Shown here: one piece after another, positions 23,910 through 52,926 of the stretch | Numbering within the stretch: position 1 is the stretch's first letter | How the letters are laid out: each line of letters starts with the position of its first letter | From: an uncultured Alteromonadaceae bacterium | Lineage (GTDB): Bacteria; Pseudomonadota; Gammaproteobacteria; Enterobacterales; Alteromonadaceae | DNA length: 55,955 nt | Assembly (NCBI GenBank): GCA_950073835.1 | Contig: CATMRP010000009.1 | Location: forward strand, 1 to 55,955 | Direction: 5' to 3' | The notes under the pieces: generated by a model | What the model was told of the DNA's origin: nothing | Databases searched by the model: none | The model's input: the letters and a program-made list of their open reading frames with translations, nothing else | Translations under genes and position numbers: made by a program

Positions 23910-24467
23910 ATGGCAACTCGAGGCGTTAACAAAGTCATTCTGGTCGGTAATTTAGGTAACGACCCGGAAGTACGTTACATGCCCAACGGCAACGCCGTTG
24001 CCAATTTGAGCCTGGCAACCAGTGAAAGCTGGAAAGACCAGCAGGGGCAGGTGCAGGAACGAACTGAATGGCATCGTTTAACCATGTACCGTCGGTTAGC
24101 AGAAATTGCCGGTGAATACCTCAAAAAAGGTTCGCAAATTTACGTTGAAGGTAAACTGCAAACCCGCAAGTGGCAGGATCAGCAGGGTCAGGATCGTTAC
24201 ACCACAGAGATTATCGTCGACCAAATGCAAATGCTCGGTGGCCGTGATGGCGGTCAGGGCGGCCAGGGTGGTGGTTATCAGCAACGCCCACAAGGCGGTC
24301 AACAGGGCGGCGGTTACGGTGGCGGCAACCAGAATTACGGCGGTGGCAATCAGGGCGGTGGTTATCAGCAACCGCCTCAGCAGCAGCGTCCGCAAGGCGG
24401 CCAGAACCAGCAAAAGCCACCTATGGCTGAGCCTGATTTCGACTTTGATGACGATATTCCGTTTTGA
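23910..24467 (+). CDS. ssb: Single-stranded DNA-binding protein
   Basis: 185 aa. The OB-fold covers residues 1-110: [20 protein letters not shown], then [21 protein letters not shown], then [21 protein letters not shown] long Gly/Gln-rich linker of GGGYQQ/GGQQGG repeats follows, ending in the acidic tip DFDDDIPF that binds partner proteins. RBS AGGAGA precedes the ATG. It sits directly left of the genomic island; its terminator marks the last clear chromosomal feature before it. Confidence 0.97.
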
Positions 24468-27449: not shown

Positions 27450-29451
27450 TGGGCGCTCTAAACGTAAGGCTAAGATCGTCCCTTTCGTAGATCGTCTTGA
27501 ACGTGAAAGGAATGAAAACCTCAAATCTTTAGTCAGCAAAGCAAAGCTAATGAAGCTAGAGGGGTTTGAATCGGTTGTTTGGGATGACCCCGAGTGGCAA
27601 GTCGATTCAGGTCGCCTAGTCAAGTTAACTGGTAATAATACGAAATCAGCCTCTTTTGGTTTTGCGCTGTCTCTGAAGCTGGGTTCAGCGCCACTAGACG
27701 GTTGCTGGGGACTAGCTGCTAAAGCGTTATTTGTTCTTAGGTTCCACAGAAAACATCAATCAGCATCGAATCAGCGCAATTTCATTACCGCTATTGGATA
27801 TGTATCATTTGCAGCTAAACAGCTAGGGCAGGAGTTAGTTAGGCTTACGCCAGAAGCTCTGGACAATGCGTCGGGTTTAATCTCAAAACATTACAGTGAA
27901 TCCTCAGCCTACAACCTTCACAAGCATGTTGCAGAGTTTGCGGCACACTGCGATGCCAATGGCTTGTGCAGGGTTTTATTACAGTACAAATATGCCAAGA
28001 TGGCACGTCCTGCGAGCACAGGAGGGCTGAATCATAAGAGGCTGGATGATCCGGAAATTCTGGAAACAAAGTCGGATAAACTTGTCTATCCAGTTGTATT
28101 TAGAGTTATTGGAGAACTCTATCTAAACGTACCAAAAGACCATAAGTATCGCCATTATGTTTTGATGTTGGCATTACTTGCTTGCACTGGGCGTCGATTT
28201 AGTGAGGTTTCACTATTCCCTAATCAGCAACTATCGTTAGATGGAGAAGGAAAATGCTATATTGAATATTTTCCGCGAAAAACAAGTCAAGGTGATTTTT
28301 TTACACCAAAGCGTCGGCTGTACTTACCCTCAGAAGTGTATCCTATCGTAGGTGATGTACTCGATGAGTTGATTGAAATTACTAGGGAAACACGTTCGAT
28401 AGCTGAAGAAATGCACAAGGTTCGGGGAGCGGATCTTAGATTTTTGGACAGCATTCCTGAAAGTAAAAAGTTATATATTGATGATTTAACTAAATTAGGA
28501 ATCAGTCACACTGTATTGAGCACAACCGGTTGGCTCAGAAAGCAAAACTTAACTTGGCCGGATCCATATGCTCAAAAAAAGCGAGGTGGAAAAACGATAG
28601 CGCCGATTCGATATACAAATAAGCAAGGAATCATAAGGTATTGTTTTCGAGATTTCTCTGAAAAATTACTACGTCCATATCATGTCGATCAGTTTGGTAA
28701 AGAGTATTACCTAAAAGATCTGTTATTCATTCGCCCGCTCGGGCTTTCCAGTGGGAGCTACGCTCACTGGTTGGCCGCAAGCTGTAGCCAGTCAATGTTT
28801 ACTACCTTTCTTCGCTATTTCCCAGCGCTTGCCGCCGAATACGCCTCCAGTAGTATCGAGGTGGACTTCACTAGTCATCACTTTCGTCACACACTTAATA
28901 CCCTGCTTGATGAGGGAGGGTTAAGTGACCTGCTGCAAACTGAATGGTTCGGTCGAACCAACCCAAGAGATACTAAAGCTTATCAGCATACATCTCGCGA
29001 AAAGCGAGCTCTGATGCTACGTGCAGACGTCAAAAAAGGCTTGGTTGGTGGCCAGTTAGCTGAGCGAATAAAAGTGGTTCCGTTGGAAGTTCAGGATGCC
29101 ATTTTGAAAGCGCGAATTCAGGCAGTTCATGATGTCGGTACGGGTATCTGTATCCACAATTTCTCTCAAACACCCTGCGAGCGTCATTTGCAATGTTCGG
29201 CGGACTGCAAAGACTACGTGTGGGCGAAGGATGATAAAGGACGTCTGGACGAGCTGAAACGCCAGTATGCTCTTACTGCGCAGGCACGAGAAAATGCTGA
29301 AAAGCAGTTGGCTAGCGGCAAGCCGAAAAAAAGTGCCGACTGGTTGGCACACAACGATAAAAAACTTAAAACACTAGCAGCTCAACTTGCCGACAATGGG
29401 GTAAAGCTCTTTGACCCCGAAGAATATCTAAACGAGGTAGAGCATGGTTAA
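27442..29451 (+). CDS. Tyrosine recombinase 3 of the trio, with C-terminal Cys cluster
   Basis: 669 aa from the ATG at 27442, which overlaps the preceding stop (ATGACTGA) and has GGAAAGGG before it; a GTG 18 bases upstream is possible. Catalytic set: Arg251/252 (ACTGRRFSEV), His480-Arg482-His483 (SHHFRHTLNTLL) and Tyr514 (DTKAYQHTS). Cys570, Cys579, Cys585 and Cys589 (CIHNFSQTPCERHLQCSADC) form a second zinc-type cluster, followed by a helical, Lys-rich tail. Largest member of the trio, comparable to Tn554 TnpB in length. The next gene overlaps its end by 8 bp. Confidence 0.83.
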   Translation: MTDGRSKRKAKIVPFVDRLERERNENLKSLVSKAKLMKLEGFESVVWDDPEWQVDSGRLVKLTGNNTKSASFGFALSLKLGSAPLDGCWGLAAKALFVLRFHRKHQSASNQRNFITAIGYVSFAAKQLGQELVRLTPEALDNASGLISKHYSESSAYNLHKHVAEFAAHCDANGLCRVLLQYKYAKMARPASTGGLNHKRLDDPEILETKSDKLVYPVVFRVIGELYLNVPKDHKYRHYVLMLALLACTGRRFSEVSLFPNQQLSLDGEGKCYIEYFPRKTSQGDFFTPKRRLYLPSEVYPIVGDVLDELIEITRETRSIAEEMHKVRGADLRFLDSIPESKKLYIDDLTKLGISHTVLSTTGWLRKQNLTWPDPYAQKKRGGKTIAPIRYTNKQGIIRYCFRDFSEKLLRPYHVDQFGKEYYLKDLLFIRPLGLSSGSYAHWLAASCSQSMFTTFLRYFPALAAEYASSSIEVDFTSHHFRHTLNTLLDEGGLSDLLQTEWFGRTNPRDTKAYQHTSREKRALMLRADVKKGLVGGQLAERIKVVPLEVQDAILKARIQAVHDVGTGICIHNFSQTPCERHLQCSADCKDYVWAKDDKGRLDELKRQYALTAQARENAEKQLASGKPKKSADWLAHNDKKLKTLAAQLADNGVKLFDPEEYLNEVEHG

Positions 29452-29920
29452 GCGCTTCAGACGCATGTCCGACAGTGACATCAATACAATCGTTGCCGAT
29501 TTGGATCGCTGGGCATTGGGTGAGCTTGGGTCAAAATTAACCTGGGCTGTGCTGGAAGAACGTTTTGGCTTTAGTCGCCAATCGCTCCAGGCTAAATCTG
29601 AGATTAAAGCTGCTTATGACAACGCCAAACGCGCATTGTCGGGCGGATTGGTGAAAACCAAAGAGCAGGCCACTAAAGAGGCTGAAGGGCTTCAGGTAGA
29701 GGTGGCTCGCCTCAAAGCGGAACTGAATGCTTACAAGCGAAAGGAAGAGCGATGGCTGTGTCGCTGGCAGCAAATCGCCTTTCATGTGCGGCAGAAAGGC
29801 ATTCAGATGGCCAGTGTTGATAAAGCTCCGTCAGAAGAGGGCGTGCTGCCTACTAAAACGGAAACCGATAAGATACTCAGGCCATTTGATAAGGAAATTC
29901 CACCTTCAGGTAGGGTTTAG
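29444..29920 (+). CDS. Small HTH/coiled-coil accessory protein (TnpC/DUF6262 or GmtX-like)
   Basis: 158 aa. The N-terminal ~55 residues look like a helix-turn-helix (WAVLEERFGFSRQSLQAKSE). Then a long charged coiled coil follows (KEQATKEAEGLQVEVARLKA), and a short polar tail. Small proteins of this form follow the recombinase genes in Tn554-like elements (TnpC) and in Gamma-Mobile-Trio islands (GmtX); which family it belongs to needs a profile search. Start overlaps the third recombinase gene by 8 bp; the first cargo gene begins 6 bp after its stop, so mobility and cargo genes share one transcript. Confidence 0.7.
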   Translation: MVKRFRRMSDSDINTIVADLDRWALGELGSKLTWAVLEERFGFSRQSLQAKSEIKAAYDNAKRALSGGLVKTKEQATKEAEGLQVEVARLKAELNAYKRKEERWLCRWQQIAFHVRQKGIQMASVDKAPSEEGVLPTKTETDKILRPFDKEIPPSGRV

Positions 29921-29926
29921 ACTGCG

Positions 29927-32900
29927 ATGAATATTAATTGGGATGTTGTGCGAAAAAACATAAAATTTGTGGTTTTGCTGCTTAGACCTTCATTAGCGAA
30001 GGCTCTAAGTGTGCCGTTGTTGTTGTCAGGAATAAGTATCCTTAATCCTCCTTTGTGGCTGGATTTTCTAAATTGGCTTTTGAGGAATCAAAAAGTCCTT
30101 CCAGAATTTAGCGAGCCAATATCAACTCCAATGTATATAACTGGCTGGGTGCTAATCGGTTTAAGTATTCTGATTTACTTGATCGATGTTTGGCTTCAAT
30201 TTAAATCAATACGTCAGGATAGTGAGATAAAGCTACAGGATGTCGTCAAGGAGCATTCTAAACAAGCAGCAGATTCGATAGCTGATAAGTTGCGGAGCGA
30301 AGGATTTACCGCGCAGCATCTTCAAGACGAAAAAATAGAAGAATTTGCTCACGAAATTTCTTCGCTGCGATTTTTCGGGGCTTTTCCTAAAGTGGAGAAA
30401 GCAAAAGCTTTGGCAGAAAGCATTATTAATGGAGAGTTGTCTGGCGGTACACCTCAAACAAAAGCCAAGGCACTTGCACTACTTGCACGGTACTTGTGTG
30501 TGGGGGAAACATTAGAGCAGGCTAAAAGCTGGTTATCATCCTCTAAAAAACTATGCCAAACGGAAGAGGCGGAAATAGCTCAGTCCTTTATAGACGCTAT
30601 TGGAACGAAAAATGTAGATGCGGCAACTGGATTGCTAAAGGTAAGTATCCCATCAAATTATGCCGCCTTTTTTACAATTAAAAGAATAGTAGAGGGCAAC
30701 GTTGCTGCTTTGGACTGGTTTGAAAGCGCTGGCTTAAGCGCTCAAGATTTAGATTATGATGGTAAGGCTGTAATGGTTTCCGCATTGTTAGCTGAGCAAA
30801 AATGGGAAGAGGCTTTAAATTTTTTGCAGGTAATGGACGATGAGTCATTGTCTGTGTCTCCAGCGCTGGCTCAGCTTTCCGCATTTACTTTCTTGGTAAA
30901 TGCAATTAAGGCCGTAGAGCTCCGTGAGAGTGTATTGACTTATATCCCCCTCGCTGCGGATAGGTTTCCACTGGCGGATGATTCTGAATCTATAGTGCTT
31001 AGAAATCGTTCGGTAAAGCTATTTAAAATATGTTCGCGCTGCGCAAGGGATCTCAGAGCTGAAGATATAGCGAATATTTCGGATAGCTATGCGCTGTGGT
31101 TAGAGCTTAGAAACAGTGAAACTCATGAACAGGCAAAGGCTGAACTTCAAAGTTACTTCGTTAGTTACACTCAAAAAACACTTGAGTATTTACCATTGGC
31201 GTATGCTTTTGGAATTGATATTGATTTTGACTCCATTGAGCAAGAGGTAAATAGACAGACAGCACTAAGTCCAGCGAATAACGCAATTCTCGGTTTAGCT
31301 CGGTTTATATTGGCTCAGGCACAAGACCCAATATCGGCCGCGGTGGATTATATCAGCCGCCATAGAAGTCAAATGGAAAGGAGTGTTAATTCCGTTGTTA
31401 TAAGTATGCTAGAAGTAGAAGCATTAGCGAAGTCAGGGTTGGTTGATGATGCACAAAGGCTTTTAGATAAGGCTGCGGAGTCGGGGGCGTCTGATACCGA
31501 GGTCAAGAACTTGCAAAATATTATCGATTCAGCCAAAGGCGCAGATCCTGTTGCATTGGCAATAAGCCAATATCAACAAAGTGAAGCTACAAGTGATCTT
31601 GCTTATTTGGTTAATTTGTTAGAAAGGAAAAATCGAGGGGACCGATACTATTTATATTGCCGGGAGCTTTTTGATCGTACTGGCCAAGAATCTGATGCAA
31701 TTAGAGTTTGTAATGCCGCGTCTTCGCTTGGAAAGTTTTCTGAGATTCATAATTTTCTGTCAGAAAGGATGGATATCGTTAATAGAAGCGAAGGGTTGCT
31801 GGCTCACTGGGCTTGGTCTCTTTTTAGAAAGGGGGACCTAAGAGGTGCTCATGATCAGATCGCACTGTTAAGACAATCCAAATCACAACTGCCTCATCTT
31901 AAAGCGCTTGAAATCAATTTGGCCATATTCGGTGGTAATTGGGAATCCCTTAGCGTATTTGTGGAGGATAGTTGGAATAGCCGGGAGGAGTTGAATGCCA
32001 ACGATCTTTTGCAGGCCGCCCAGTTAGCTAAGGCCGTGTCCCCGGGTCGAGCACGGCAAATAGTAGAGTTTTGTACTGGCAAGTATGCTGAAGATCCTCA
32101 AGTGTTAGCGGCATCGTACTTTACTGCGACCACTATGGGATGGGAGGACAATCAAAAAACATCGGAGTGGCTCAATCAAGCAATGGTCCTCTCCAATGAC
32201 GATGGCCCATTGCATAGGGCTTCACTAGAAGACTTGAAACAGATGATGTTTGAAGCCAGGGAGAAAAATGAGAAGGTTTATAAGGCATACATGGATGGTG
32301 ATGCGCCTATATTTACTGTGGCTGAGCACTTGAACAGGACGATGTCTGACTTTTATCTGGTGCAGTCACAGGAAAACAAAAGCGTTAAAGATATACGGCG
32401 GAAAAATTTAGTCCCGATATATCATGGTGTGAGATTGGAGCAGATTATTGAAAGTAAGAGGATTGCCATAGATGCTTCCAGTGCCCTAGTTATGGAGAAT
32501 GTAGGGCTTCTGCATCATTTGTTTGATTGTTTCGAGAGAATTGTTATCCCTCACTCGTTCATGCGCTGGTTGTTTGAAGAAAAGCAAAAAGTTGCTTTTC
32601 ACCAGCCGAGCCAGATCGAAAAGGCAAAATATTTTGAGCGAATGGTATCTAACGACATAATTTCCGTTTTCCAACCTAAAACGATTAACAACCCGGGGCT
32701 TGCGATGGATGTGGGTGATGAGCTTGCTTATATGCTTGAGGAAGCAATCGCGAATCCTAAAAGTGTATCGCAAACATTGGTTGTTTGTTCCTACCCCGTG
32801 CATAAGGTTGGTGGCTCATTCAGAGAGGTGGAAGTTGACCTTTCATCATTTAAGCACAGTCTGATTTCATGCACACAATTAATTAAAAAACTCGAAGGTC

Positions 32901-34027
32901 TGGCAGTAATAACTGAAGCTCAGAGTTGTAAAGCCATAAAATACCTACGCCAACACGAGAAAGAGTGGCCTACGGATCTTGAAGTAGAGAGTGGCGCAAG
33001 ATTATTTCTCGATTCACTGTCAATTACCTATTTAATGACCGTTGAAATGCTCGACAAGCTTAGCGAGGCCGGGTTCGAAGTGTTTGTCTTTAGAGGGGAG
33101 CGGGATAGGTATAGGTCGCTGATAAATTACGATTCAATCATCGAACAGGCAGATTCTAAAATAGAAAATATCAGGAACTTATTTTCTAATGGGATTGCAT
33201 CTGGGAAAGTGGCCCTTGCTGGATTGCCGGAAAATCTAGAGCAAGCAGATGCATCTAATAATAAATATGCTAGGCCAACAGAAGAGCTTTTTGAGACGCT
33301 GAAAGAATGCGATGCAGCTTTGATAGATGATCGATTTATGAATAAGCATCGAAATATTGTATTTGGTGAAATAACGGTACCAATTTTCACATCATTGGAT
33401 TTTATTAATACGCTACACCACAAAGGACTTATTTCTAAAGAGCAGAAGCTTGATGCCAGAACAACGCTTCGGGAGTTTGGGTTTGAGTTCGTTGGAATTT
33501 CTGCTGACGAGCTTGAATATCACCTAGATCACTCGGTTATGGCAAATGGTGAGTTTAAGCCAACTAAACAGCTAAGACAGATAAGAGAAAATCTACTTTT
33601 GATCAGGATTAGTGGTTTGGTTCAGCTCCCACGAGATGCGCAGTGGCTACAAGAAACACTGAAAACGATTGCACAAGCCATAAGGGCTCAGTGGTCGAAA
33701 GATATTCCACTCGAACTAAGCCGCGCTAGATCTTGCTGGCTTTATGAGCTGATTGGCTATAGGGAATGGGCTCAGGCACACCAAATAAGGGGGGATGAAG
33801 GGATGGCCAATTGGGGTGAGGTTTTAAAGGTGAATTCCATATTGATTGCTCCGGAGTCTTTAACTAATAAGCAAAAGAAAAGCTACAAAGCATGGTTAGA
33901 TGAGTTTGTTCTGGGGCCGCTGAAAGATATCGATCCATGGAGTTTTAAGAATATGGTTGATTCGATGAAACAGCAGGTTAAAAGCATTTCTCAACAATCG
34001 ACCACGGAGGATGAATTGGATGGCTAA
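29927..34027 (+). CDS. 1366-aa membrane-anchored TPR-like protein with C-terminal PIN-type nuclease domain (island cargo)
   Basis: Domain order seen: a hydrophobic N-terminus (about residues 13-53) and a clear membrane helix at 70-91 (ITGWVLIGLSILIYLIDVWL); a charged helical stretch; then about 650 residues of alpha-helical, TPR-like repeats (roughly 150-800). From about 840 a PIN-like fold: RIAIDASSALVM (Asp849), Asp931/Glu932 (GDELAYML), Asp1029, Asp1129, Asp1134-Asp1135 (ECDAALIDDRF) and IFTSLDFINTLHHKGLIS (Asp1158). These acidic positions and the hydrophobic strand patterns fit a metal-dependent RNase; they recall PIN domains reported in fusion with TPR and GreA/B-C domains. The partner gene overlaps its end by 8 bp. 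Role in phage defence or abortive RNA cleavage is inference; PIN call moderately sure. Confidence 0.7.
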   Translation: MNINWDVVRKNIKFVVLLLRPSLAKALSVPLLLSGISILNPPLWLDFLNWLLRNQKVLPEFSEPISTPMYITGWVLIGLSILIYLIDVWLQFKSIRQDSEIKLQDVVKEHSKQAADSIADKLRSEGFTAQHLQDEKIEEFAHEISSLRFFGAFPKVEKAKALAESIINGELSGGTPQTKAKALALLARYLCVGETLEQAKSWLSSSKKLCQTEEAEIAQSFIDAIGTKNVDAATGLLKVSIPSNYAAFFTIKRIVEGNVAALDWFESAGLSAQDLDYDGKAVMVSALLAEQKWEEALNFLQVMDDESLSVSPALAQLSAFTFLVNAIKAVELRESVLTYIPLAADRFPLADDSESIVLRNRSVKLFKICSRCARDLRAEDIANISDSYALWLELRNSETHEQAKAELQSYFVSYTQKTLEYLPLAYAFGIDIDFDSIEQEVNRQTALSPANNAILGLARFILAQAQDPISAAVDYISRHRSQMERSVNSVVISMLEVEALAKSGLVDDAQRLLDKAAESGASDTEVKNLQNIIDSAKGADPVALAISQYQQSEATSDLAYLVNLLERKNRGDRYYLYCRELFDRTGQESDAIRVCNAASSLGKFSEIHNFLSERMDIVNRSEGLLAHWAWSLFRKGDLRGAHDQIALLRQSKSQLPHLKALEINLAIFGGNWESLSVFVEDSWNSREELNANDLLQAAQLAKAVSPGRARQIVEFCTGKYAEDPQVLAASYFTATTMGWEDNQKTSEWLNQAMVLSNDDGPLHRASLEDLKQMMFEAREKNEKVYKAYMDGDAPIFTVAEHLNRTMSDFYLVQSQENKSVKDIRRKNLVPIYHGVRLEQIIESKRIAIDASSALVMENVGLLHHLFDCFERIVIPHSFMRWLFEEKQKVAFHQPSQIEKAKYFERMVSNDIISVFQPKTINNPGLAMDVGDELAYMLEEAIANPKSVSQTLVVCSYPVHKVGGSFREVEVDLSSFKHSLISCTQLIKKLEGLAVITEAQSCKAIKYLRQHEKEWPTDLEVESGARLFLDSLSITYLMTVEMLDKLSEAGFEVFVFRGERDRYRSLINYDSIIEQADSKIENIRNLFSNGIASGKVALAGLPENLEQADASNNKYARPTEELFETLKECDAALIDDRFMNKHRNIVFGEITVPIFTSLDFINTLHHKGLISKEQKLDARTTLREFGFEFVGISADELEYHLDHSVMANGEFKPTKQLRQIRENLLLIRISGLVQLPRDAQWLQETLKTIAQAIRAQWSKDIPLELSRARSCWLYELIGYREWAQAHQIRGDEGMANWGEVLKVNSILIAPESLTNKQKKSYKAWLDEFVLGPLKDIDPWSFKNMVDSMKQQVKSISQQSTTEDELDG

Positions 34028-35894
34028 CTCTGATTCTGTGCGTGCTTATATGGCCATCAGTGCGATCAATTTATTCCCCAGCCTTGTAAAGACTGAACTA
34101 TTATCTGATTCAAAGATGCTGGAAGAGCTGGCTATTACTACTGACGCTACAGTGCATTTTGGTAATAGAGAGTTAGCCTTTTCCAGAAGTTCTCTCTTTG
34201 ATGCTATTCGCAGTGCTTTTGAAAACACCGGGAAAGACTTTTTTCTAGATGATGTTAAGGGTAATTCTTGGTCTTTACGCTATCATCAGGATGAACGTCC
34301 AGCTTTTTCTTTAACTCTGGGGGATTTGCAAATATTTAATGATAGTTTTTGGCCGCTTTGTGCTGATGTGGACAGGCGGTTAAGCCTATTTGAGACAGAA
34401 GCGAAGGGTAGATCACTATCGAAAGATGAGCGGCTCCGTTGGCGGACAGTACTTTCGACACAAACGATAAGTGATGATGATGTATCAGATTTGTTGCTCG
34501 ATTTGGATTGCTCGCCAAGTCACATTGAGGCTCTTTTGAGGCAGGAGTTTCAAGGCTCCTCAAATGATGTTTCAACGCTAGTTCCAAGTAATATTCGCTA
34601 CTACGAGAGGCTAGTGGGGAAATATTGCGGGAGCAACAGTGTTGATGAGTATTGCGAGGTCGAGTTAAAGCAACATTTTGGCAGAAGAATAGAAAGTGGA
34701 GTTACTGAAAATGATTTTTTGATATGCATTCACAAATCAATATCAGCAGCCGTTTCCAATGGCCCTATTGATGAGGTTCAGTATCACGCTATAACAAAAC
34801 GAGCGATCGAATCCAGTCACCCAATACTTTTAATTTCATGCATCGAAGTAGGGATTCTGAAATTCAAAAATACATCAACTGCGATTATTAAGGAGCTCTT
34901 TGAAAGCATATCATCTACCAAAACGTTAAATAACATACGCCTGTTTTGCTCAATGGTAGTTTTTGTTGATGGCGAACTGTCGCGATTGCAGATATTCAAA
35001 GGAATGCCGCCATTCTACAGGCGTCTTGCTTCATTCGCCCAGTCAGCTTTAATTGTTAAAGTGGCGTTGGAAGAGGGCGTTGCTTTTGACAATGTTGAGC
35101 AGTGGGCTTCTCAGCAAAGGGGCCTTAACTTTTTCTGCCAAAGCTTTATCGATTTAAGAGAAGAGCCAAGATGGCTGCCGACTTACTTAACAGAAGAGCA
35201 AATTAATAATGAACTGTACGGACGGGTCAATGTCGCGTGTCAAGAGTCTGATAAGTGTGAGGTAACTGAATATCTACAAAATGAGCTTACGTCTGGTTCC
35301 AGGTTGAATATGCACTCGTTCTTACCTGGGCCATTGGAAGGTATCTCTGTACCAGCGGTTGTGCCTGATGAAATCTCGAATTTACTAGCTAAAAATATTA
35401 CCGGTGAGGCATCATTTGAATCCTACAAGGTTTTGATGCATTCAGCACCGTTTTGGAAAATTGATGATGAATTTTTGGATCGTGCCGTTTCGTTGCTCGA
35501 AAGCGCACAGCACAAGTTAGCAGCAGTTAACGACAAGGATTCTGTCTACCAAGTGTTAAGTGGGCTGGCTCAGGTTGCCTGTATGACCAGAAGTCAAAAG
35601 CTTGCTGCGTCGGTAACGATCTTAAGTCGACTATATCGAGACTATGTTGAAGTGGATTCTGAACCCGAAAACTATCTGGCAATAGGCGTTGTGGCAGGTG
35701 CAGCTTTTGAGGATAAAGATGGTTGGGCAGAATATATAGGACAATGGTGCACAGAATTGGCTTATATGCCAATCAGTGAAGACTCTATTGGGAGAATGGA
35801 ACGGATGCTTGAAAGGCTTTGCATTTTGGAGCCCTATTTATATTACACCTGTTCAAAAGCACTCGATATGTTTAGGCTGTTGATTGGGAAATGA
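34020..35894 (+). CDS. 624-aa partner protein of unknown fold (island cargo)
   Basis: 624 aa from the ATG at 34020, chosen because GGAGG lies nine bases before it; the ATG at 34011 abuts the same GGAGG with no spacing. It overlaps the PIN-protein gene by 8 bp, so the two are translationally coupled. No signal peptide, membrane helix or catalytic motif that I recognise. The N-terminal ~120 residues look beta/alpha mixed (ATVHFGNRELAFSRSS, SLRYHQDERPAFSLTLGD); the rest is mostly helical. It could be a sensor, inhibitor or structural partner of the upstream putative nuclease. Function unknown. Confidence 0.75.
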   Translation: MANSDSVRAYMAISAINLFPSLVKTELLSDSKMLEELAITTDATVHFGNRELAFSRSSLFDAIRSAFENTGKDFFLDDVKGNSWSLRYHQDERPAFSLTLGDLQIFNDSFWPLCADVDRRLSLFETEAKGRSLSKDERLRWRTVLSTQTISDDDVSDLLLDLDCSPSHIEALLRQEFQGSSNDVSTLVPSNIRYYERLVGKYCGSNSVDEYCEVELKQHFGRRIESGVTENDFLICIHKSISAAVSNGPIDEVQYHAITKRAIESSHPILLISCIEVGILKFKNTSTAIIKELFESISSTKTLNNIRLFCSMVVFVDGELSRLQIFKGMPPFYRRLASFAQSALIVKVALEEGVAFDNVEQWASQQRGLNFFCQSFIDLREEPRWLPTYLTEEQINNELYGRVNVACQESDKCEVTEYLQNELTSGSRLNMHSFLPGPLEGISVPAVVPDEISNLLAKNITGEASFESYKVLMHSAPFWKIDDEFLDRAVSLLESAQHKLAAVNDKDSVYQVLSGLAQVACMTRSQKLAASVTILSRLYRDYVEVDSEPENYLAIGVVAGAAFEDKDGWAEYIGQWCTELAYMPISEDSIGRMERMLERLCILEPYLYYTCSKALDMFRLLIGK

Positions 35895-36352
35895 TTAATA
35901 TTTTTAAATGTTTATTTTATATGTGGATTGCGGCATAAGCTCGGTAACAACTGAGTTAAAGGATTTTCTTTCACCGAGATGTAGAAACAACCAGCCATTC
36001 AATACCCTCTTTTTAGGTTTTGTGAGTTAGATCCGCAGGAGTTGATCAGTTACTGTCGCTAAAAATGTCAAGATTCAATCTTTACGCTTGGCGGCTAATA
36101 ATCTCGCAGTACTGGTACAAAAGATTTTCAATTGTTACCCAAACTTAACGCTTTGACCTGCGGTTTAATAAAAATCATTTATTTTCAATTGATTGAGTGT
36201 AACTTCTTTTCTTTTATGTGAACTACCGTTCTAAAATACGGGCATGCTTATTTTATAAACCCTGCTTCGGCGGGGTTTTTTATTGGCAATGACAGCACCG
36301 CCAAAAATGCATATAGTAAAAATCTGGTTATTTCACCTCTGCAGGAAATCAT
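35895..36352. other. Intergenic region at the right end of the island
   Basis: 458 bp between the last cargo gene and the zinc-ribbon gene. AT-rich, with no open frame of note. It should contain the right boundary of the island but I found no repeat matching the left side convincingly. A strong terminator sits at 36257-36281, followed by the promoter and RBS area of the zinc-ribbon gene. Confidence 0.45.
36257..36281 (+). terminator. Rho-independent terminator right of the island
   Basis: Nine-bp stem AAACCCTGC / GCGGGGTTT (one T-G pair) closed by a stable TTCG tetraloop, followed by six T (36276-36281). Probably ends transcription leaving the island. Confidence 0.88.
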
Positions 36353-46682: not shown

Positions 46683-47633
46683 ATGCGCATTGGTTGGCGT
46701 TCTTTCCTCAAACAAAAATTCCAAAAAAAATCTGGCTATCATGCAATCGGAATTGCTGTGTCGCTGGATTCGGTAACGTTTTGTGCGCTGAAAAAACTTA
46801 ACGGCGAAATTAGCCTTGCGTTTGAAGAGACTGTCAGCTTTTCTCACTGGGGCGTTCACCTGGCCAAGTGGGTTGATAAACACGGTCTGAGCGGCACGCC
46901 TGCCTGTGTTGCGTTTTCAATTCACTGGTATCAAATTCTGCAGATTGACCGCCCAACCGTTGAAGCCAATGAGATCACCGCGGCATTATCCTGGTCGGTG
47001 AAAGAACTCACCGGCAGTGATAAGGAAATGGCCATCGATTACACCGATTTACCGGTGCCGCTGGCAGGCAATGCCAGAATAAATGTATTTGCCCTGCCTA
47101 AGGAAGATGTCGAGAGTGTCAGCGAAGCGGTATTTAACGCTGGTCTTGAACTCCAATTGATTACCGTTGAGGAACTGGCCACTTGTGAATTAGTGCCGGT
47201 GCAATCCGACCCTATCCTGACCGTGGTACAGGAAGCCGGTGAAGAAATTTGTCTGAATATTATCAAAGATGGTCAGCTGTATTTCAGCCGCCGTCTGAAA
47301 GGCTTTGAGAACCTCGGTAGCTTTACTGAGGACGAGCTCAGAATGGGCATTGGTGAGTCGTTAAGTGTGCAGATTCAGCGTTCTATGGACTTTTATGAAA
47401 GTCAGTTGCGACAGGCACCGGTGAGGCAGATTATGATGCGCCTCGATACGCCTCATCGGGATGCACTGGCCAGTCAGATTGAACAGGTGGTGAGTGCCAG
47501 AGTCAATGATCTCACCCCCGCAGTGACTGCCGCCGAGCCGGGCATGTCGGTAACCCGGGTCAATTATTCCAGTCTTGGTGCAGCGATTTGTGGGTCTGCT
47601 GAGCCGCAGGTTAAAAACGAGGCTGCGGCATGA
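46683..47633 (+). CDS. mshI: MSHA biogenesis protein MshI (PilM-like)
   Basis: 316 aa. Actin-fold PilM-type protein: YHAIGIAVSLDSVTFCALKK at the N-terminus, EANEITAALSWSVKEL in the middle and SSLGAAICG at the end. In type IV pili PilM is cytoplasmic and binds the PilN tail to link the motor to the envelope. First gene of the MSHA (mannose-sensitive haemagglutinin) operon in the window. Its stop overlaps the next start (ATGA). The mshH/csrD genes commonly found upstream in relatives are absent from this side. Confidence 0.87.
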   Translation: MRIGWRSFLKQKFQKKSGYHAIGIAVSLDSVTFCALKKLNGEISLAFEETVSFSHWGVHLAKWVDKHGLSGTPACVAFSIHWYQILQIDRPTVEANEITAALSWSVKELTGSDKEMAIDYTDLPVPLAGNARINVFALPKEDVESVSEAVFNAGLELQLITVEELATCELVPVQSDPILTVVQEAGEEICLNIIKDGQLYFSRRLKGFENLGSFTEDELRMGIGESLSVQIQRSMDFYESQLRQAPVRQIMMRLDTPHRDALASQIEQVVSARVNDLTPAVTAAEPGMSVTRVNYSSLGAAICGSAEPQVKNEAAA

Positions 47634-48241
47634 AAAACAGGATTAATTTTTATTCTGCCGAGTTTGCCCCGCGCCTCGACTTGCTCTCGCTTACCAGTGT
47701 GTTATTAGCATGGGGAGCAACTCTCTCTGTGCTGTTACTCATTTGGGCGGGTGTCGCCTGGTATGGCGCTTCTAAACGCACCGAACTGGCAGAGGTTCAG
47801 GACCAGCAACAGCAGTTATCGGCTTCGGTAAACAACCTTAAAACCACGCTTGAGCAACGTAAACCGGATGCTGGCCTTACCCGCACTCTGGAACAACGTC
47901 AGCAGGAACTGGCAAATCGTGAACTGCTGGTGCGCGAGCTCAGCCAGCGCGAGCAAATCAAACAGCAGGGCTTTGCCGGGATGCTCGACAGCCTGGCGCA
48001 GAAAAACAGTCAGGATATCTGGCTCGATACTATTGAAGTGAGTGAAAACATGATGGTACTCCAGGGGCAACTGAGTACCCCGCAAGCCATGCCCAAATGG
48101 TTACAGCGTTTGGGACGGACTACAGCGTTCTCTGGCCGCACCTTCGATTCCACCCGACTGTATCGTGACAACGAGCAATTGCGCTTTGAATTGAACATGG
48201 CCCGGGTGCCGGAAACAATGCAACAAGGTGGTCTGCGGTGA
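47630..48241 (+). CDS. PilN-domain MSHA biogenesis protein
   Basis: 203 aa with one membrane helix (about 26-46, VLLAWGATLSVLLLIWAGVA) after the short cytoplasmic start RINFYSAEFAPRLDLLSL, which resembles PilN start motifs. A coiled coil follows (QDQQQQLSASVNNLKTTLEQ), then an alpha/beta periplasmic domain. It is expected to join MshI and MshJ as the inner-membrane alignment complex. Translationally coupled to mshI and to mshJ (GTGA overlap). Confidence 0.83.
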   Translation: MKNRINFYSAEFAPRLDLLSLTSVLLAWGATLSVLLLIWAGVAWYGASKRTELAEVQDQQQQLSASVNNLKTTLEQRKPDAGLTRTLEQRQQELANRELLVRELSQREQIKQQGFAGMLDSLAQKNSQDIWLDTIEVSENMMVLQGQLSTPQAMPKWLQRLGRTTAFSGRTFDSTRLYRDNEQLRFELNMARVPETMQQGGLR

Positions 48242-48885
48242 CTTTTGACCAGTACGAAGAAAAATTTGCCGCGCTGAGTCAGCGCGAGAAGGTGTTAATT
48301 TTTGCCTCAGGAATGGTGGTAGTTTTTGCTGTGCTGGTTTTCTTGTTGATTGAGCCCGGCGTAAAGGAAAACGGTAAAACAAGCAGTAGCATTGAGATTA
48401 CCCGCAACGAGGTTACCACACTTAAAGAGTTGCAACTGGTTTATGAACAAGCGCTGGCCGAAGATCCGAATGCCAGCCTGAAGCAGCAGATAACCCAGGT
48501 AGATAAGCGGATGGTGCGACTGCAGGAAAACTTTGCCGCGCAATTAGCTGATTTAATCCTGCCCCGGCAAATGCCCGCGCTTATCGAACAGGTGTTCTCC
48601 CAGGCTGATGGGTTAAAGCTCATCGAAATGGCCTCCGTCAGCCCGGAAAATATTTTTGCTGATAACCCGGCTATGGCAGAGGTGCCGCTTTACCAGCATG
48701 GTGTTACGCTGACTTTCGAAGGCCGTTATTTTGCGGTAAGAGACTTTCTGGCTCGCCTTGAGGAACTGTCGGATAAACTGTACTGGCGCTCTATGGCCTA
48801 TCATGTAAAGGACTATCCCACTGCTGAGGTGACCCTTGAGGTTTACACTCTGAGTACTGAAAAGGCGTTTATAGGTGTTGAATAA
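48238..48885 (+). CDS. mshJ: MSHA biogenesis protein MshJ (PilO-like)
   Basis: 215 aa, GTG start overlapping the previous stop. Short cytoplasmic start (YEEKFAALSQREKVLIF), one membrane helix (residues ~20-42), coiled coil (TRNEVTTLKELQLVYEQALA), then a periplasmic ferredoxin-like domain (LTFEGRYFAVRDFLARLEEL). This is the MshJ/PilO architecture of the inner-membrane alignment complex. Overlaps mshK by 11 bp. Confidence 0.85.
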   Translation: MTFDQYEEKFAALSQREKVLIFASGMVVVFAVLVFLLIEPGVKENGKTSSSIEITRNEVTTLKELQLVYEQALAEDPNASLKQQITQVDKRMVRLQENFAAQLADLILPRQMPALIEQVFSQADGLKLIEMASVSPENIFADNPAMAEVPLYQHGVTLTFEGRYFAVRDFLARLEELSDKLYWRSMAYHVKDYPTAEVTLEVYTLSTEKAFIGVE

Positions 48886-49231
48886 AGTGTCTCCTTTGTT
48901 GCTGTTAACCCTGCTCGCTGTACCGGCGGGAGCGCAGGTGCTTGAGGATCCAACGCGCCCGGCACGCAACGCCCCTCAGGCCAATGCGGCGGTTGCAGCG
49001 GCGGCGGTTGAACTACAACTGGAAGCCGTGTTACAGCTTGGCGCGAGTCGGATCGCGGTGATTAACGGCAAAACGGTGAAATCAGGGCAGACAATACAGG
49101 GCGCAATAGTAAAACAAATTAATCCACGCAGCGTGGTGATTGCGCAAGATGAGAACGGGGTTTGGAAAACAATGACGTTATGGGTCAGCCAACGGGGCGA
49201 CGTGAAAACCAATGCAGCAGAGAATTATTAA
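48875..49231 (+). CDS. mshK: MSHA biogenesis protein MshK (PilP-like)
   Basis: 118 aa from a TTG start with signal peptide (LNKVSPLLLLTLLAVPAGAQ). The mature part begins VLEDPTRPAR, typical of MshK/PilP/GspC-type periplasmic proteins, and contains an HR-like beta domain (LEAVLQLGASRIAVINGKTV, KSGQTIQGAIV). Bridges the inner-membrane complex to the MshL secretin. Overlapped with mshJ; followed immediately by mshL. Confidence 0.82.
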   Translation: MLNKVSPLLLLTLLAVPAGAQVLEDPTRPARNAPQANAAVAAAAVELQLEAVLQLGASRIAVINGKTVKSGQTIQGAIVKQINPRSVVIAQDENGVWKTMTLWVSQRGDVKTNAAENY

Positions 49232-49241
49232 AATGGGTAGC

Positions 49242-50909
49242 ATGAATAGACGTTTGATATATATCGCTCTGGCTATGGCACTGGCGGGCTGTCAGTCGAC
49301 ACCCGAAGAATCCGTGGTGGAACAATCACTGAAACAGCAACTGGCTGAACAAATTGCCCATGAACAAGCTGCGCAAAAAAACGCCAAGGCGTCGCCGGGT
49401 GCTTTGCAGGATGTGCCAGACAGCGTGACCAGTTTACTGGGTGATGTGGCAACCACCGGTGAGCGCCCCTCGTTATTTGGCCCGGAAAAATACGATATCG
49501 AAGCTGACGGCGTTGGCGTAAGAGCCTTTTTTACCGGGCTGGTAGCAGATACGCCCTACAGCGTGGCTATTCACCCCGACGTCAGCGGGGAAATATCCCT
49601 GAGCTTAAAACAGGTCTCCATGGAACAGGTGATGGAGCTGTTGGGCGACCTGTACGGCTTTGATATCAGTCGCAAGAGCAATGTTTTCAGAGTTCTGCCC
49701 GCTGGCATGCGTACCGAAACTCTGGCCGTAAATTACCTGCTGATGAAACGGGACGGCTCAACCCAAACCAGCATTATCTCTGGCGGTGTGTCCCAGGCCG
49801 ATAATAACGGTAATTCCAACAGCAATTTTAATAATTTCAGCGGTAATTCGGCGAACAGTAACAATCTGGGTAATCAGTTTGGTAACAATATTAACGGCAC
49901 CTCTATTTCAACCCGCACCGAAACCGATTTCTGGACCGATCTGAAAGCGTCACTGGAGTCGATGATCGGCACCGAAGGCGGCCGCGCGGTATTTGTCACG
50001 CCACAGGCTGGCCTGGTCACCATTCGGGCAATGCCGGATGAAATCCGTGATATTAAGCGTTTCCTGAAAACCTCTGAGGCAAGCCTGCAGCGGCAGGTTA
50101 TTCTGGAAGCCAGAATTCTCGAAGTGGCTCTCGATGACGGCTATCAGCAGGGCATTAACTGGTCTGAAGTAGTGGCAAACGTTGGCAGTACCGACTTTAC
50201 CTTCAGCAATACTGCTGCCAGTATTGGTAACGAAATTTCTGCTTCGCTGGGGGGCGTTACCAGCTTATCGTTCCTTAACCAGGATTTCTCCGGAGTTATC
50301 TCGTTGCTGTCTACGCAGGGCAACGTGCAGGTATTATCCAGCCCCAGGGTTACCGCCATTAACAATCAAAAAGCGGTGATTAAAGTGGGCGACGACGAGT
50401 ATTTCGTTACCGATGTATCGAGTCAAAACACCATCACCTCCACCACTACCTCGGTAGTGCCGAACATTGAGCTTACCCCGTTTTTCTCAGGGATAGCGCT
50501 GGATGTAACGCCACAAATTGACGAAACCGGCTCAGTGTTGCTGCACGTTCATCCTTCGGTAATCGAAACTCAGGAACAGGAAAAAGTGGTTAGCCTGAAT
50601 CAGGAGCAAATCGTCCTGCCGCTGGCGCAAAGCACTATACGTGAGTCGGATACCATCATTAAAGCGGCATCAGGCGAAATTGTGGTGATTGGTGGCCTAA
50701 TGCAAACCAGCCTGACCGATTCAGAATCAAAAACGCCGTTGCTTGGTGATATCCCGCTACTGGGCGAGTTGTTTACCAACAAAAGCCAGCGCGAGACCAA
50801 AAAAGAGCTGATTATACTGCTCAAGCCCACCGTTATTGGCAGCGGTACCTGGGCAGAACAAATTGAATTAAGCCGTGAAAAAATGGCCGACTGGCTGTAC
50901 GTAGAGTAA
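49242..50909 (+). CDS. mshL: MSHA secretin MshL (outer membrane pore)
   Basis: 555 aa from the ATG at 49242, which gives a compact lipoprotein signal (MNRRLIYIALAMALAGCQS); Mets at 49212 and 49233 are alternatives. N-terminal secretin/TonB short domain (GVGVRAFFTGLVADTPYSVA), an Asn/Gly-rich linker (about 185-225), then the secretin domain: RQVILEARILEVALDDGYQQ, VQVLSSPRVTAINNQKAVIK, and IVVIGGLMQTS with the final KSQRETKKELIILLKP. Forms the ring through which the MSHA pilus leaves the cell. Confidence 0.92.
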   Translation: MNRRLIYIALAMALAGCQSTPEESVVEQSLKQQLAEQIAHEQAAQKNAKASPGALQDVPDSVTSLLGDVATTGERPSLFGPEKYDIEADGVGVRAFFTGLVADTPYSVAIHPDVSGEISLSLKQVSMEQVMELLGDLYGFDISRKSNVFRVLPAGMRTETLAVNYLLMKRDGSTQTSIISGGVSQADNNGNSNSNFNNFSGNSANSNNLGNQFGNNINGTSISTRTETDFWTDLKASLESMIGTEGGRAVFVTPQAGLVTIRAMPDEIRDIKRFLKTSEASLQRQVILEARILEVALDDGYQQGINWSEVVANVGSTDFTFSNTAASIGNEISASLGGVTSLSFLNQDFSGVISLLSTQGNVQVLSSPRVTAINNQKAVIKVGDDEYFVTDVSSQNTITSTTTSVVPNIELTPFFSGIALDVTPQIDETGSVLLHVHPSVIETQEQEKVVSLNQEQIVLPLAQSTIRESDTIIKAASGEIVVIGGLMQTSLTDSESKTPLLGDIPLLGELFTNKSQRETKKELIILLKPTVIGSGTWAEQIELSREKMADWLYVE

Positions 50910-50911
50910 TC

Positions 50912-51835
50912 ATGTATCTGTATCACTTTGGTATCCGTGAACTGCCTTTTACGCTGACGCCGAATACCAGCTATTTTTTCGGTTTGCCCAGCCACAACGA
51001 GGCCATGCAGGTATTACTGACAGCGCTGAAAACCGGCGAAGGTTTTATCAAGGTTACGGGTGAAGTGGGAACCGGTAAAACACTGATTTGCAGAAAGTTG
51101 CTTAATGAATTACCGGACCACTTTGTGGCCGCCTACGTGCCGAACCCGATGCTGTCACCTACCGAGCTACGGCGTGCGGTGGCCAATGAACTGGGAGTGG
51201 AGCTGGGCAGCGACTGCGATCAGCAGGCGTTCACGCAAAAGATTCAGCAGCGTTTGATTGCCATTCATCAGCAACAGAAAAGTGCGGTGCTGATTATTGA
51301 TGAGGCCCAGGCATTGCCTACCGAGAGTATTGAAGCGTTGCGGTTAATGACCAATCTGGAGACCGAGTCGCGTAAATTACTTCAGGTAGTGTTATTCGGA
51401 CAGCCAGAGCTGGACGAAAAGCTCGCTTTGCCCGAGTTACGCCAGTTACGGCAGCGCATTACCTTTAGTTACAGCCTGGCGCTTATGGATCCTGATCAGG
51501 TGTATCAGTATGTCCGACACCGGGTCAATGTGGCCGGTTATCATGGCACGGATTTATTTAACCGTCAGTGCTGCGAGCTTCTCTACCGCGCCAGTGCCGG
51601 CACACCCCGGGTGGTGAATGTGCTGGCCCATAAAGCGTTAATGCTGGCTTATGGCGAAGGCAAGTCAGCGGTTGAGCCAGAGCACATTGTCGCGGCGTCT
51701 GCTGATACAGAAGCGGCGCAAACGGTAAGCAATAAATGGTGGCTCGGCCCGCAGAGTAAGTGGTTGCTGTTAGCGGCTACAGCAGTAGTGATTGTAATGA
51801 TTGCAGGGATATGGAACATGAGGGCGACACTGTGA
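50912..51835 (+). CDS. mshM: MSHA biogenesis ATPase MshM (ExeA/GspA-like)
   Basis: 307 aa AAA-type ATPase. Starts MYLYHFGIRELPFTLTPNTS, typical of ExeA/MshM. Walker A GEVGTGKT, Walker B VLIIDEAQALP, sensor-type VVLFGQPELDEKL, and SAGTPRVVNVLAHKALMLAY. A C-terminal membrane helix (WLLLAATAVVIVMIAGIWNM) ends the protein. Thought to help secretin assembly through the peptidoglycan. The stop overlaps the mshN start (GTGA). Confidence 0.9.
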   Translation: MYLYHFGIRELPFTLTPNTSYFFGLPSHNEAMQVLLTALKTGEGFIKVTGEVGTGKTLICRKLLNELPDHFVAAYVPNPMLSPTELRRAVANELGVELGSDCDQQAFTQKIQQRLIAIHQQQKSAVLIIDEAQALPTESIEALRLMTNLETESRKLLQVVLFGQPELDEKLALPELRQLRQRITFSYSLALMDPDQVYQYVRHRVNVAGYHGTDLFNRQCCELLYRASAGTPRVVNVLAHKALMLAYGEGKSAVEPEHIVAASADTEAAQTVSNKWWLGPQSKWLLLAATAVVIVMIAGIWNMRATL

Positions 51836-52926
51836 GTGTAGTCAATAAAATGCTGAAAGACTTAGAGAACCGCGAAGCCAGTCAGGCTACGCCGGCTAAC
51901 TATCAGCCGCCGGCTAAAAAGTCGTCTTCAGCGCTGCGCATTGCCATCATTCTGCTACTTGGTGTAATAGCCATTGGCGCCGTTTACTTATGGCCTGCAG
52001 ATACCATGGATAATCTGCCACAAAGCGCGTCGGTGGGGCCGATTAACCAGATTGTTCCTGAAGCCGTGGCCGCCCAGGCCGTAGCGCCTGAAGAGCCGCA
52101 AGAACCCAGACAGATTAAAGTCACGCCCACTACCAGGCCGCAAAATACCATGGGCGTAATGGAGGGGCCGGTCGATATCAACGCGCCATCCAGACGCACC
52201 GAATCCACAACTGAAGGCTCACAACCCACTGCACGGGAAAGAGTGGCTGCGCATTCAACCCGCAAGGCGTCTGACTCAGAGCCTTCTCCGGTTGCTGCGT
52301 CTGAACCCGATGATGTACCCGCTGAGCCGGTTATCAAGCCCAGTGCGACGAATCCGGAAGACGCCCTGAAAGCGCAAATTCGCCAGGCCCTGAGTCAGAA
52401 CGATACGCCAATGGCTGTTCAGTTGCTAATAACGCTGATCCGCCAGCAACCAGATAACGTGGCCGCCCGCAAACGACTGGCCGCCCTGTATTTTAGTGCG
52501 GGCCGCACAACCGACGCTCAGCAGTTATTGCAGCAAACTGTAGCGGATATGCCTGCCGACAGCAGTGTCAGGCTGATGTATGCGCGTTTGCTGGTGCAGC
52601 AAAATGAGACCAAGCTGGCGTATTACACGCTGCAAGACGTTAACGATTATGGTCAACCTTCCATTGAACTGTTGGGCTACCGCGCGTCACTGGCGCAAAA
52701 GCTCGACCTGCTGGATGACGCGCTGCAAGATTACGCCCAATTGGTATTGCTTGATAGTCAGACCGCCAGGTGGTGGCTCGGTCAGGCGGTGGTCGCCGAT
52801 AAACAGGGCTATACAGCCCTCGCGCTAAGCAGCTATCGGGAAGCACTGTCATTACAACAGCTCGAAGACGGCATTGAACAATTTATTCGCCAGCGCTTAA
52901 CCAATCTGACGGGAGTTTCATCATGA
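51832..52926 (+). CDS. mshN: MSHA biogenesis protein MshN (TPR protein)
   Basis: 364 aa from the GTG at 51832, which overlaps the mshM stop and has GAGGG upstream. Starts SVVNKMLKDLENREA, a typical MshN opening. One membrane helix (about 27-48, LRIAIILLLGVIAIGAVYLW), a Pro/Glu-rich periplasmic stretch to about residue 175, then TPR-like helical repeats (QALSQNDTPMAVQLLITLIR, AARKRLAALYFSAGRTTDAQ). Stop overlaps mshE (ATGA). Confidence 0.85.
   Translation: MSVVNKMLKDLENREASQATPANYQPPAKKSSSALRIAIILLLGVIAIGAVYLWPADTMDNLPQSASVGPINQIVPEAVAAQAVAPEEPQEPRQIKVTPTTRPQNTMGVMEGPVDINAPSRRTESTTEGSQPTARERVAAHSTRKASDSEPSPVAASEPDDVPAEPVIKPSATNPEDALKAQIRQALSQNDTPMAVQLLITLIRQQPDNVAARKRLAALYFSAGRTTDAQQLLQQTVADMPADSSVRLMYARLLVQQNETKLAYYTLQDVNDYGQPSIELLGYRASLAQKLDLLDDALQDYAQLVLLDSQTARWWLGQAVVADKQGYTALALSSYREALSLQQLEDGIEQFIRQRLTNLTGVSS

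Follow-up and report, generated by a model that had tools for sequence, protein, structure and literature searches.

The predicted TPR / GreA/B-C / PIN conflict system, split over two genes and membrane-anchored, as the likely cargo of a GInt-like island at ssb in an uncultured Alteromonadaceae bacterium

What are two overlapping genes of unfamiliar type doing directly behind an operon of recombinases, and do they serve in defence? The question is raised by a stretch of 55,955 nucleotides from an uncultured Alteromonadaceae bacterium (contig CATMRP010000009.1 of assembly GCA_950073835.1), which was analysed whole and is called the window here. The genes encode a large protein of 1366 amino acids (aa) with PIN-like regions and a partner of 624 aa, and both open reading frames (ORFs), listed in a preliminary description of this DNA, were found intact at 29927-34027 and 34020-35894. 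Our reading, to which we give a probability of roughly 0.7, is that the pair would be a split form of the TPR / GreA/B-C / PIN conflict system, carried as the sole cargo of a GInt, an island of a known type, at the ssb gene. The family identity of the pair is close to certain.

This identity comes from curated protein families. The large protein matches PF24407 (HTH_upst_double_PIN) over the curated cut-off (E 4e-18) and PF20698 (PIN-TPR-GreABC) with 47.7 bits against a cut-off of 27.8 (E 2.4e-12), which bears out its earlier assignment to the PIN family. The partner had been called a protein of no known family, and this was wrong: it carries the Permuted_GreAB-C domain PF24388 (47.2 bits against a cut-off of 27, E 1.6e-12). 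The claim of about 650 residues of helical repeats stands in part, in that residues ~126-760 are repeat-like, with TPR itself only weakly matched. Neither protein matched any model of PADLOC-DB 2.0.0 or of NCBIfam at E <= 0.1, nor any of PHROGs at E <= 0.01. The best match to a solved-structure profile, a radial spoke protein (E 0.0094), was read as chance.

The nature of the partner becomes clearer from relatives of the large protein. PF24407 was found in 6 of 369 genomes of the class and in 4 of 398 of the phylum (our own genome is counted in both, and not every first-look candidate was scored), and the eight other genomes encode the protein as two genes in one case (G352) and in one uninterrupted frame of 1811-2116 aa in seven. 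We compared a profile of the partner with the region after the PINs of these seven chains (E-values are those of a search of these seven, with filters off). Four ends matched clearly, with E-values of 4e-133 (G042), 4e-37 (G448), 1.5e-14 (G101) and 6e-6 (G515), and three weakly, with 0.02 (G082), 0.065 (G554) and 0.36 (G155), all from the same end of the profile as start. Profile-to-profile, G082, G155, G554 and G515, the weak three included, align with the partner over 561 columns (E 5.3e-5, probability 66.7). Moreover, a natural fusion nearer to the clade of the window (P0200, 1998 aa, 60% identical) occurs, and protein P0247 holds all three Pfam domains within one chain. Because the single-chain ends and these fusions match the partner, it is best read, as far as homology can tell, as the C-terminal part of a single-chain protein that is encoded separately here. 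In the homologue P0258 (706 aa), a stretch of the TPR-like scaffold is followed by a C-terminus of TnsD-like type (PF15978), and its gene looks as if interrupted by Tn7-like sequence.

The layout of the two genes is conserved. They overlap by 8 bp if the partner starts at the ATG at 34020, a start that is kept in relatives (the longest-ORF call begins at 34011 and gives 627 aa), and of 14 gene pairs compared, 13 (those of the window, L002-L012 and L022) show the same overlap, the remaining pair (L023) overlapping by 4 bp as annotated. The pair of genome G352 has an apparent 4-bp overlap (GTGA, L043:8761-8764) and a GTG start, as read from its sequence. On the upstream side a gap of 6 bp separates the stop of ginD, the last recombinase-operon gene (29920), from the start of the large gene (29927), and from 28437 to 31801 a consensus scan gave no terminator-like site on the + strand, such sites being no commoner than in shuffles; we infer that the recombinase operon and the PIN gene may share one transcript.

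The two genes had been proposed to belong together, and the survey of their co-occurrence confirmed a fixed pair, the partner lying beside the PIN gene at each of the 13 loci examined outside the window. On genome contigs the partner was found at 11 loci, with the PIN gene directly upstream in 11 of 11 (locus L003 begins inside the PIN gene), and among three plasmid records matching the partner both of the two that were opened carry the large gene directly upstream. The identities of the two proteins covary (r 0.982, 0 of 2000 permutations, 13 pairs, one very distant pair contributing), which, in so far as sequence comparison can tell, shows joint inheritance of the pair and not contact. The distribution is sparse: PF24388 occurs in 3 of 369 class genomes (our own included), a search of 5,426 E. 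coli genomes with the partner DNA, at the sensitivity of blastn, gave no match, and the partner gave none in 50,697 phage records.

The expected company of defence genes was also found, since 5 of 7 loci outside GInts have a PADLOC match (E <= 1e-5) within about 10 kb. Directly downstream of the pair lies Avs3a at L010 and PDC-S21 at L007; the neighbours at L004 are HEC-06/Orf5 and PDC-S20, those at L006 are partial mad3/mad8 matches, and at L012 type I restriction and methylation genes flank the pair on both sides. A control of 10 ORFs from the flanks of the window gave 0 of 10 PADLOC matches, a small control from one chromosome and not from random loci of the same hosts. We consider a defence role of the pair very probable.

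A variable N-terminus, a further trait of the predicted conflict system, is seen among relatives of the large protein. In the protein itself the membrane anchor, noted earlier, was recovered as hydrophobic windows at about residues 14-45 and 65-95, in an N-terminal module that has no Pfam match. Domains over the cut-off fill this place in 4 of 9 relatives in one Pfam scan, namely HNH_2 (G042), PNP_UDP_1 (G554), bDLD3, that is bacterial Death-like domain 3 (G515), and DUF676 (an Agrobacterium plasmid), and in 2 of 7 of a second set, namely DUF4365 (P0231) and DUF676 (P0249). Below the cut-off are Mrr_cat (P0226, G155) and HNH_2 (P0228), and the scan recognised no effector domain in G082, G101, G352, G448, P0233 and P0247. 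The membrane module sits where relatives carry HNH, nucleoside phosphorylase, esterase or Death-like domains. At L004, L005 and L007 it shares 35-37% identity with that of the window, against 77-79% for the remainder of the protein; at L002, L006, L009, L010 and L022 the values are 74-83% for the module and 73-82% for the rest, and at the distant L008, L011, L012 and L023 they are 34, 38, 27 and 16% for the module and 49, 42, 41 and 27% for the rest. The contrast between module and rest is repeated among protein homologues, and the pattern indicates that the module is swapped as a block between close relatives.

The acids of the PIN regions had been listed in the preliminary description, and most of that list holds in 34 aligned sequences: D849 is kept in 33, E932 in 31, D1029 in 33, D1134 and D1135 in 34 each and D1158 in 31, but D931 (25) and D1129 (27) are less conserved; E885 is kept in 33 of 34. 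In a wider alignment of 19 sequences that includes distant single chains, where column counts are alignment-dependent, the columns of D849, D1134 and D1135 hold Asp in 19 of 19, that of D1158 in 18 and that of D1029 in 14, and E885 is Glu in 15. The full count for D849 depends on the alignment because in the distant chains G554 and G515, which have one complete but sub-threshold PIN match spanning the same stretch, the Asp in this column is the only first-motif Asp. In G082, G155 and G448 both PIN regions are present, D849 is kept and D1029 is lost, so that the first copy may be degenerate, or the two copies may contribute to a single site. With regard to a possible internal duplication, the two regions of our protein align profile-to-profile with E 0.002 (a single comparison) and a probability of only 13.7. 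A bolder version of our reading would make the PIN site that cuts RNA on phage takeover a composite of Asp849 from the first copy and the DDR motif of the second, and combine it with membrane opening by the exchangeable two-helix effector and a reading of RNA polymerase through the permuted GreA/B-C domain, all in a two-protein membrane-tethered complex; we consider this whole combination improbable.

The carrier, in turn, fits an island of about 11.8 kb of the GInt type at the 3' end of ssb, with the pair as its putative only cargo (Table 1). Here the gin gene names are assigned by order, sizes and profile matches, and not by published gin sequences. The ginB-like protein scores 256.9 bits against NF041502, below the cut-off of 350, and the ginC-like and ginD-like proteins are 83-84% and 87-91% identical, respectively, in L002, L005 and L009. 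These are the three of ten loci with flanks where a gin operon follows ssb and brings the same cargo (Advenella L002, Providencia L005, Klebsiella L009); at the other seven the pair stands without the operon, L004 retaining a ginD-like fragment. For the left edge of the island we used 19 same-genus ssb loci, of which 15 match only up to the end of ssb (24463-24467), one (L080) matches up to 24490 at 78% and three gave no match. The ssb gene was not found at the nine right-flank loci of relatives looked at, so that only the left edge is supported. On the right, the 17-mer that ends at the proposed attR-like site recurs at the right ends of L002 with 3 mismatches and of L005 with 1 mismatch. In addition, GTAAAGAT occurs near the left end (24633) and is answered close to the right end (36078) by ATCTTTAC, its reverse complement, likewise in L002 and L005; these are possible recombinase binding sites.

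The carrier type also occurs with other cargo. A related ginC is present in 75 of 5,426 E. coli genomes, and in the 13 related-ginC records opened (7 E. coli chromosomes and 6 plasmids, several sharing identical proteins and hence not independent) ssb lies directly upstream in 12, the exception, L039, having IS1 and fimbrial genes there instead. Their cargo is type I restriction in 9, a 1,922-aa ATP-binding protein in one and other genes in 3. The ATP-binding protein belongs to a Serratia marcescens plasmid GInt at a plasmid ssb, where its single 5.8-kb gene is the first cargo (L030:13562-19330), and is a possible large defence protein. Cargo of a mobile island had been claimed for the window before, and this was right as to a GInt-like island carrying the pair and wrong as to its type, given as Gamma-Mobile-Trio. 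We reject the latter, since the GmtY model scores 25.7 bits against a cut-off of 340 on the operon of the window, and the operon fits a GInt; on the contig of the window the GmtY model gave no match. A genuine GmtY is encoded elsewhere in the same genome (G000 contig C46:21361-22668, L060; 554.9 bits against the cut-off of 340), where there is probably a Gamma-Mobile-Trio island. Beyond the island, the right flank (46683-55935) is ordinary chromosome, in which secretin, T2SSE, T2SSF and PilN mark a cluster of type II secretion-like / type IV pilus type.

Table 1. Coordinates of the island, its recombinase genes and the gene pair in the window.
Feature	Position	Strand	Basis or remark
ssb (single-strand binding protein), where the island is inserted	23910..24467	+	PF00436 E 1.5e-43
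attL-like 11-mer at the ssb stop, TTCCGTTTTGA	24457..24467	+	8/11 identical to proposed right-end 11-mer
ginA-like tyrosine recombinase, 405 aa	24649..25866	+	PF00589 E 4e-12, over cut-off; order same in L002, L005, L009
ginB-like tyrosine recombinase, 528 aa	25863..27449	+	PF00589 25.8 bits vs 27.1, just below cut-off
ginC-like tyrosine recombinase, 675 aa	27424..29451	+	PF00589 20.6 bits, below cut-off
ginD-like small protein, 158 aa	29444..29920	+	DUF6262 weak, 17.4 bits vs 29
Large subunit, 1366 aa, with the parts given in the next five rows	29927..34027	+	ORF list, Pfam, alignment
N-terminal two-helix membrane module, residues 1-125, putative exchangeable-effector place	29927..30301	+	hydrophobicity, identity drop
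TPR-like helical scaffold, residues 126-760	30302..32206	+	weak TPR_19 match; TPR in eLife 2021 family description
HTH_upst_double_PIN, residues 767-836	32225..32434	+	PF24407 E 4e-18
First PIN-like region, degenerate, residues 836-1018	32432..32980	+	PF20698 positions 2-68, sub-threshold
Second PIN region, residues 1028-1141	33008..33349	+	PF20698 positions 2-135, E 2.4e-12
8-bp start/stop overlap, large gene/partner gene	34020..34027	+	layout of gene pairs
Partner subunit, 624 aa	34020..35894	+	related to C-terminal part of single-chain relatives
Permuted_GreAB-C domain of partner	34173..34316	+	PF24388 E 1.6e-12
AT-rich 3' end of island	35895..36223	+	GC 0.34 over 35895-36234 vs window 0.49
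Proposed attR-like 11-mer, TACCGTTCTAA	36224..36234	+	17-mer ending here recurs at right ends of L002, L005

How might such a pair work? We propose that the two proteins would form one complex, in which the GreA/B-C-like domain docks on RNA polymerase, or on another target of that fold, and reports a polymerase or transcript altered by phage. The TPR-like scaffold could relay this signal to a PIN site around Asp849, Asp1134 and Asp1135, which would then cut RNA, and the membrane module may either hold the machine at the membrane or be the killing effector itself, as the swapped toxic domains of relatives would be. The predicted outcome is abortive infection. Of this scheme, the sensing of polymerase is at best a tentative proposal, which we hold to be somewhat less probable than its opposite.

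The division of labour could also be reversed, with the membrane module as the effector, its two helices depolarising the membrane on activation, and the PIN and GreA/B-C parts sensing or processing nucleic acid. Such an arrangement is suggested by the position of the module in place of the HNH, phosphorylase, esterase or Death-like domains of relatives, and by its exchange as a block between close relatives. However, two short helices with a shared PSLAK motif may be a mere anchor, both exchanged versions are membrane modules, and D849 and DD1134-1135 are the best-kept acids, from which it can be argued that the PIN site matters; we regard a membrane effector as possible but rather unlikely. 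Quite improbable, in our view, is a toxin-antitoxin-like module, in which the PIN protein would be a toxin and the translationally coupled partner its inhibitor, mainly keeping the GInt in its host. PIN domains are typical toxins (VapC), the two genes are strictly coupled, and addiction-like modules are reported in GInts in the sections of PMC5385486 that concern them. Nevertheless, the partner makes up almost a third of the system, bears a GreA/B-C-like domain and, among distant relatives, stands in cis to the PIN chain. The absence of the gin operon from 7 of the 10 flanked loci (with the ginD-like fragment at L004) also speaks against such a role, and swappable nuclease or Death-like N-termini are not a toxin-antitoxin trait.

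A housekeeping RNA-processing factor, unrelated to defence and moved by chance, would account for the folds, as GreA/B-C and PIN also occur in transcription and RNA-decay factors. The rarity and patchiness of the pair (PF24388 and E. coli counts above), its mobility, its defence neighbours and its effector swapping make this the least credible of the alternatives, and a very remote one. Returning to the split conflict system as the preferred reading, several observations weigh against it. As regards the domains, the first PIN-like region matches the first half of PF20698 alone (2-68; E 0.006, 17.3 bits against 27.8), TPR_19 stays below its cut-off on the scaffold (E 0.066, 14.0 bits against 25), searches of solved-structure profiles with the PIN regions and the partner gave nothing credible, and 5 of the 9 relatives in the first Pfam scan have no recognised effector over the cut-off. 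Docking on RNA polymerase is a prediction of the authors of the eLife 2021 paper (PMC8195603), in the part that treats this system, and the domain here is a permuted variant. The neighbour test covers 30 chosen ORFs only, 24 from the seven loci and 6 from plasmids; among them, L008 has a general reverse-transcriptase match only, the chosen ORFs of L011 include no defence neighbour by PADLOC, and the 6 ORFs from two plasmid loci gave no PADLOC match. As for the island, its left and right 11-mers agree at 8 of 11 positions in the window and in L002 and at 9 of 11 in L005, and 8 of 11 was reached in 644 of 1000 right-end shuffles, which is not beyond chance; a search for the empty site in 21 genomes of the same genus, by way of ssb and the DNA of the right flank, found none.

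The split form is of practical value: it is compact, with two genes in 6 kb, and mobile by nature, its parts are removable singly, and it offers clear residues to substitute. Work on the pair would tell whether bacteria can detect phage by monitoring the RNA polymerase of the cell. The known cargo of GInts at ssb grows by one through it, and the N-terminal effector exchange of the TPR / GreA/B-C / PIN family is extended to membrane modules.

The pair had been presented as an undescribed system, which cannot be maintained, as a TPR / GreA/B-C / PIN conflict system was already predicted to be antiviral in eLife 2021 (PMC8195603), whose passages on it describe no experimental test. According to these passages, one chain unites a variable N-terminal effector (EAD10 or 13 others, e.g. 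REase, HNH, TIR, SIR2, nucleoside phosphorylase) with a constant part, made up of TPR repeats and of the GreA/B-C and PIN domains; the genes mostly stand alone with few conserved neighbours, and the proposed target is RNA polymerase that viruses have taken over. Our pair shares the PIN of the PIN-TPR-GreABC family, the GreA/B-C-type domain, the place of a variable N-terminal effector and, by a match below the cut-off, the TPR-like scaffold. Unlike that single polypeptide, it consists of two overlapping genes, its GreA/B-C domain is permuted and placed after the PIN-like regions, of which there are two, a membrane module takes the effector place, and the carrier is a GInt.

GInts, as presented in the relevant sections of Bardaji et al. 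2017 (PMC5385486), consist of ginABCD, three integrases and a small protein (Tn6571 family), with cargo from the ginD stop onwards, a 3' end that is short and AT-rich, imperfect repeats of 10-17 nt and insertion in ssb in 6 of 11. They are already reported as defence carriers in the part of the 2023 E. coli pan-genome defense-island survey (PMC10121019) that treats them. The island of the window is alike in its three tyrosine recombinases and small fourth gene, the cargo right after it, the AT-rich 3' end and the ssb target. It differs from the GInts in those sections of the two papers, which carry restriction-modification, resistance, virulence or other known systems, in that its cargo is only the PIN/GreAB-C pair. 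Its flanking repeats are too weak to prove. The family is already known as a prediction and the carrier is known as well. New, in that we did not find them described in the open-licence literature, are the split form with its membrane anchor and the carriage of this form by GInts at ssb (four genomes).

The Gamma-Mobile-Trio consists of GmtY and its partners, GmtZ and GmtX. Its islands carry defence cargo, according to the portion of PMC12039261 that describes them. Adjacent recombinase genes with a small partner and a defence cargo are common to these islands and ours, but the operon of the window is far below the GmtY model cut-off. Close homologues of the pair occur in Vibrio parahaemolyticus (partner 66%, PIN region 71-72%). 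From the same species and from Gamma-Mobile-Trio islands, Mahata and colleagues reportedly described in 2024 a two-gene anti-phage system with a PIN protein, GAPS6. The pair may be GAPS6, and hence already validated by experiment, with chances that we would put at about even. A search of open-licence papers found neither GAPS6a/GAPS6b nor the pair described, and the available text of PMC12039261 and PMC12935923 does not contain GAPS6. Finally, the pertinent part of the DefensePredictor paper (PMC13092281) describes two systems, DS-3 and DS-5, whose PIN nuclease is needed for phage defence. Compared by that description, DS-5 resembles our pair in being PIN-containing and made of two proteins, but its partner has a DUF5830 and an AcrIF4-like domain, and DS-3, unlike our pair, is one protein.

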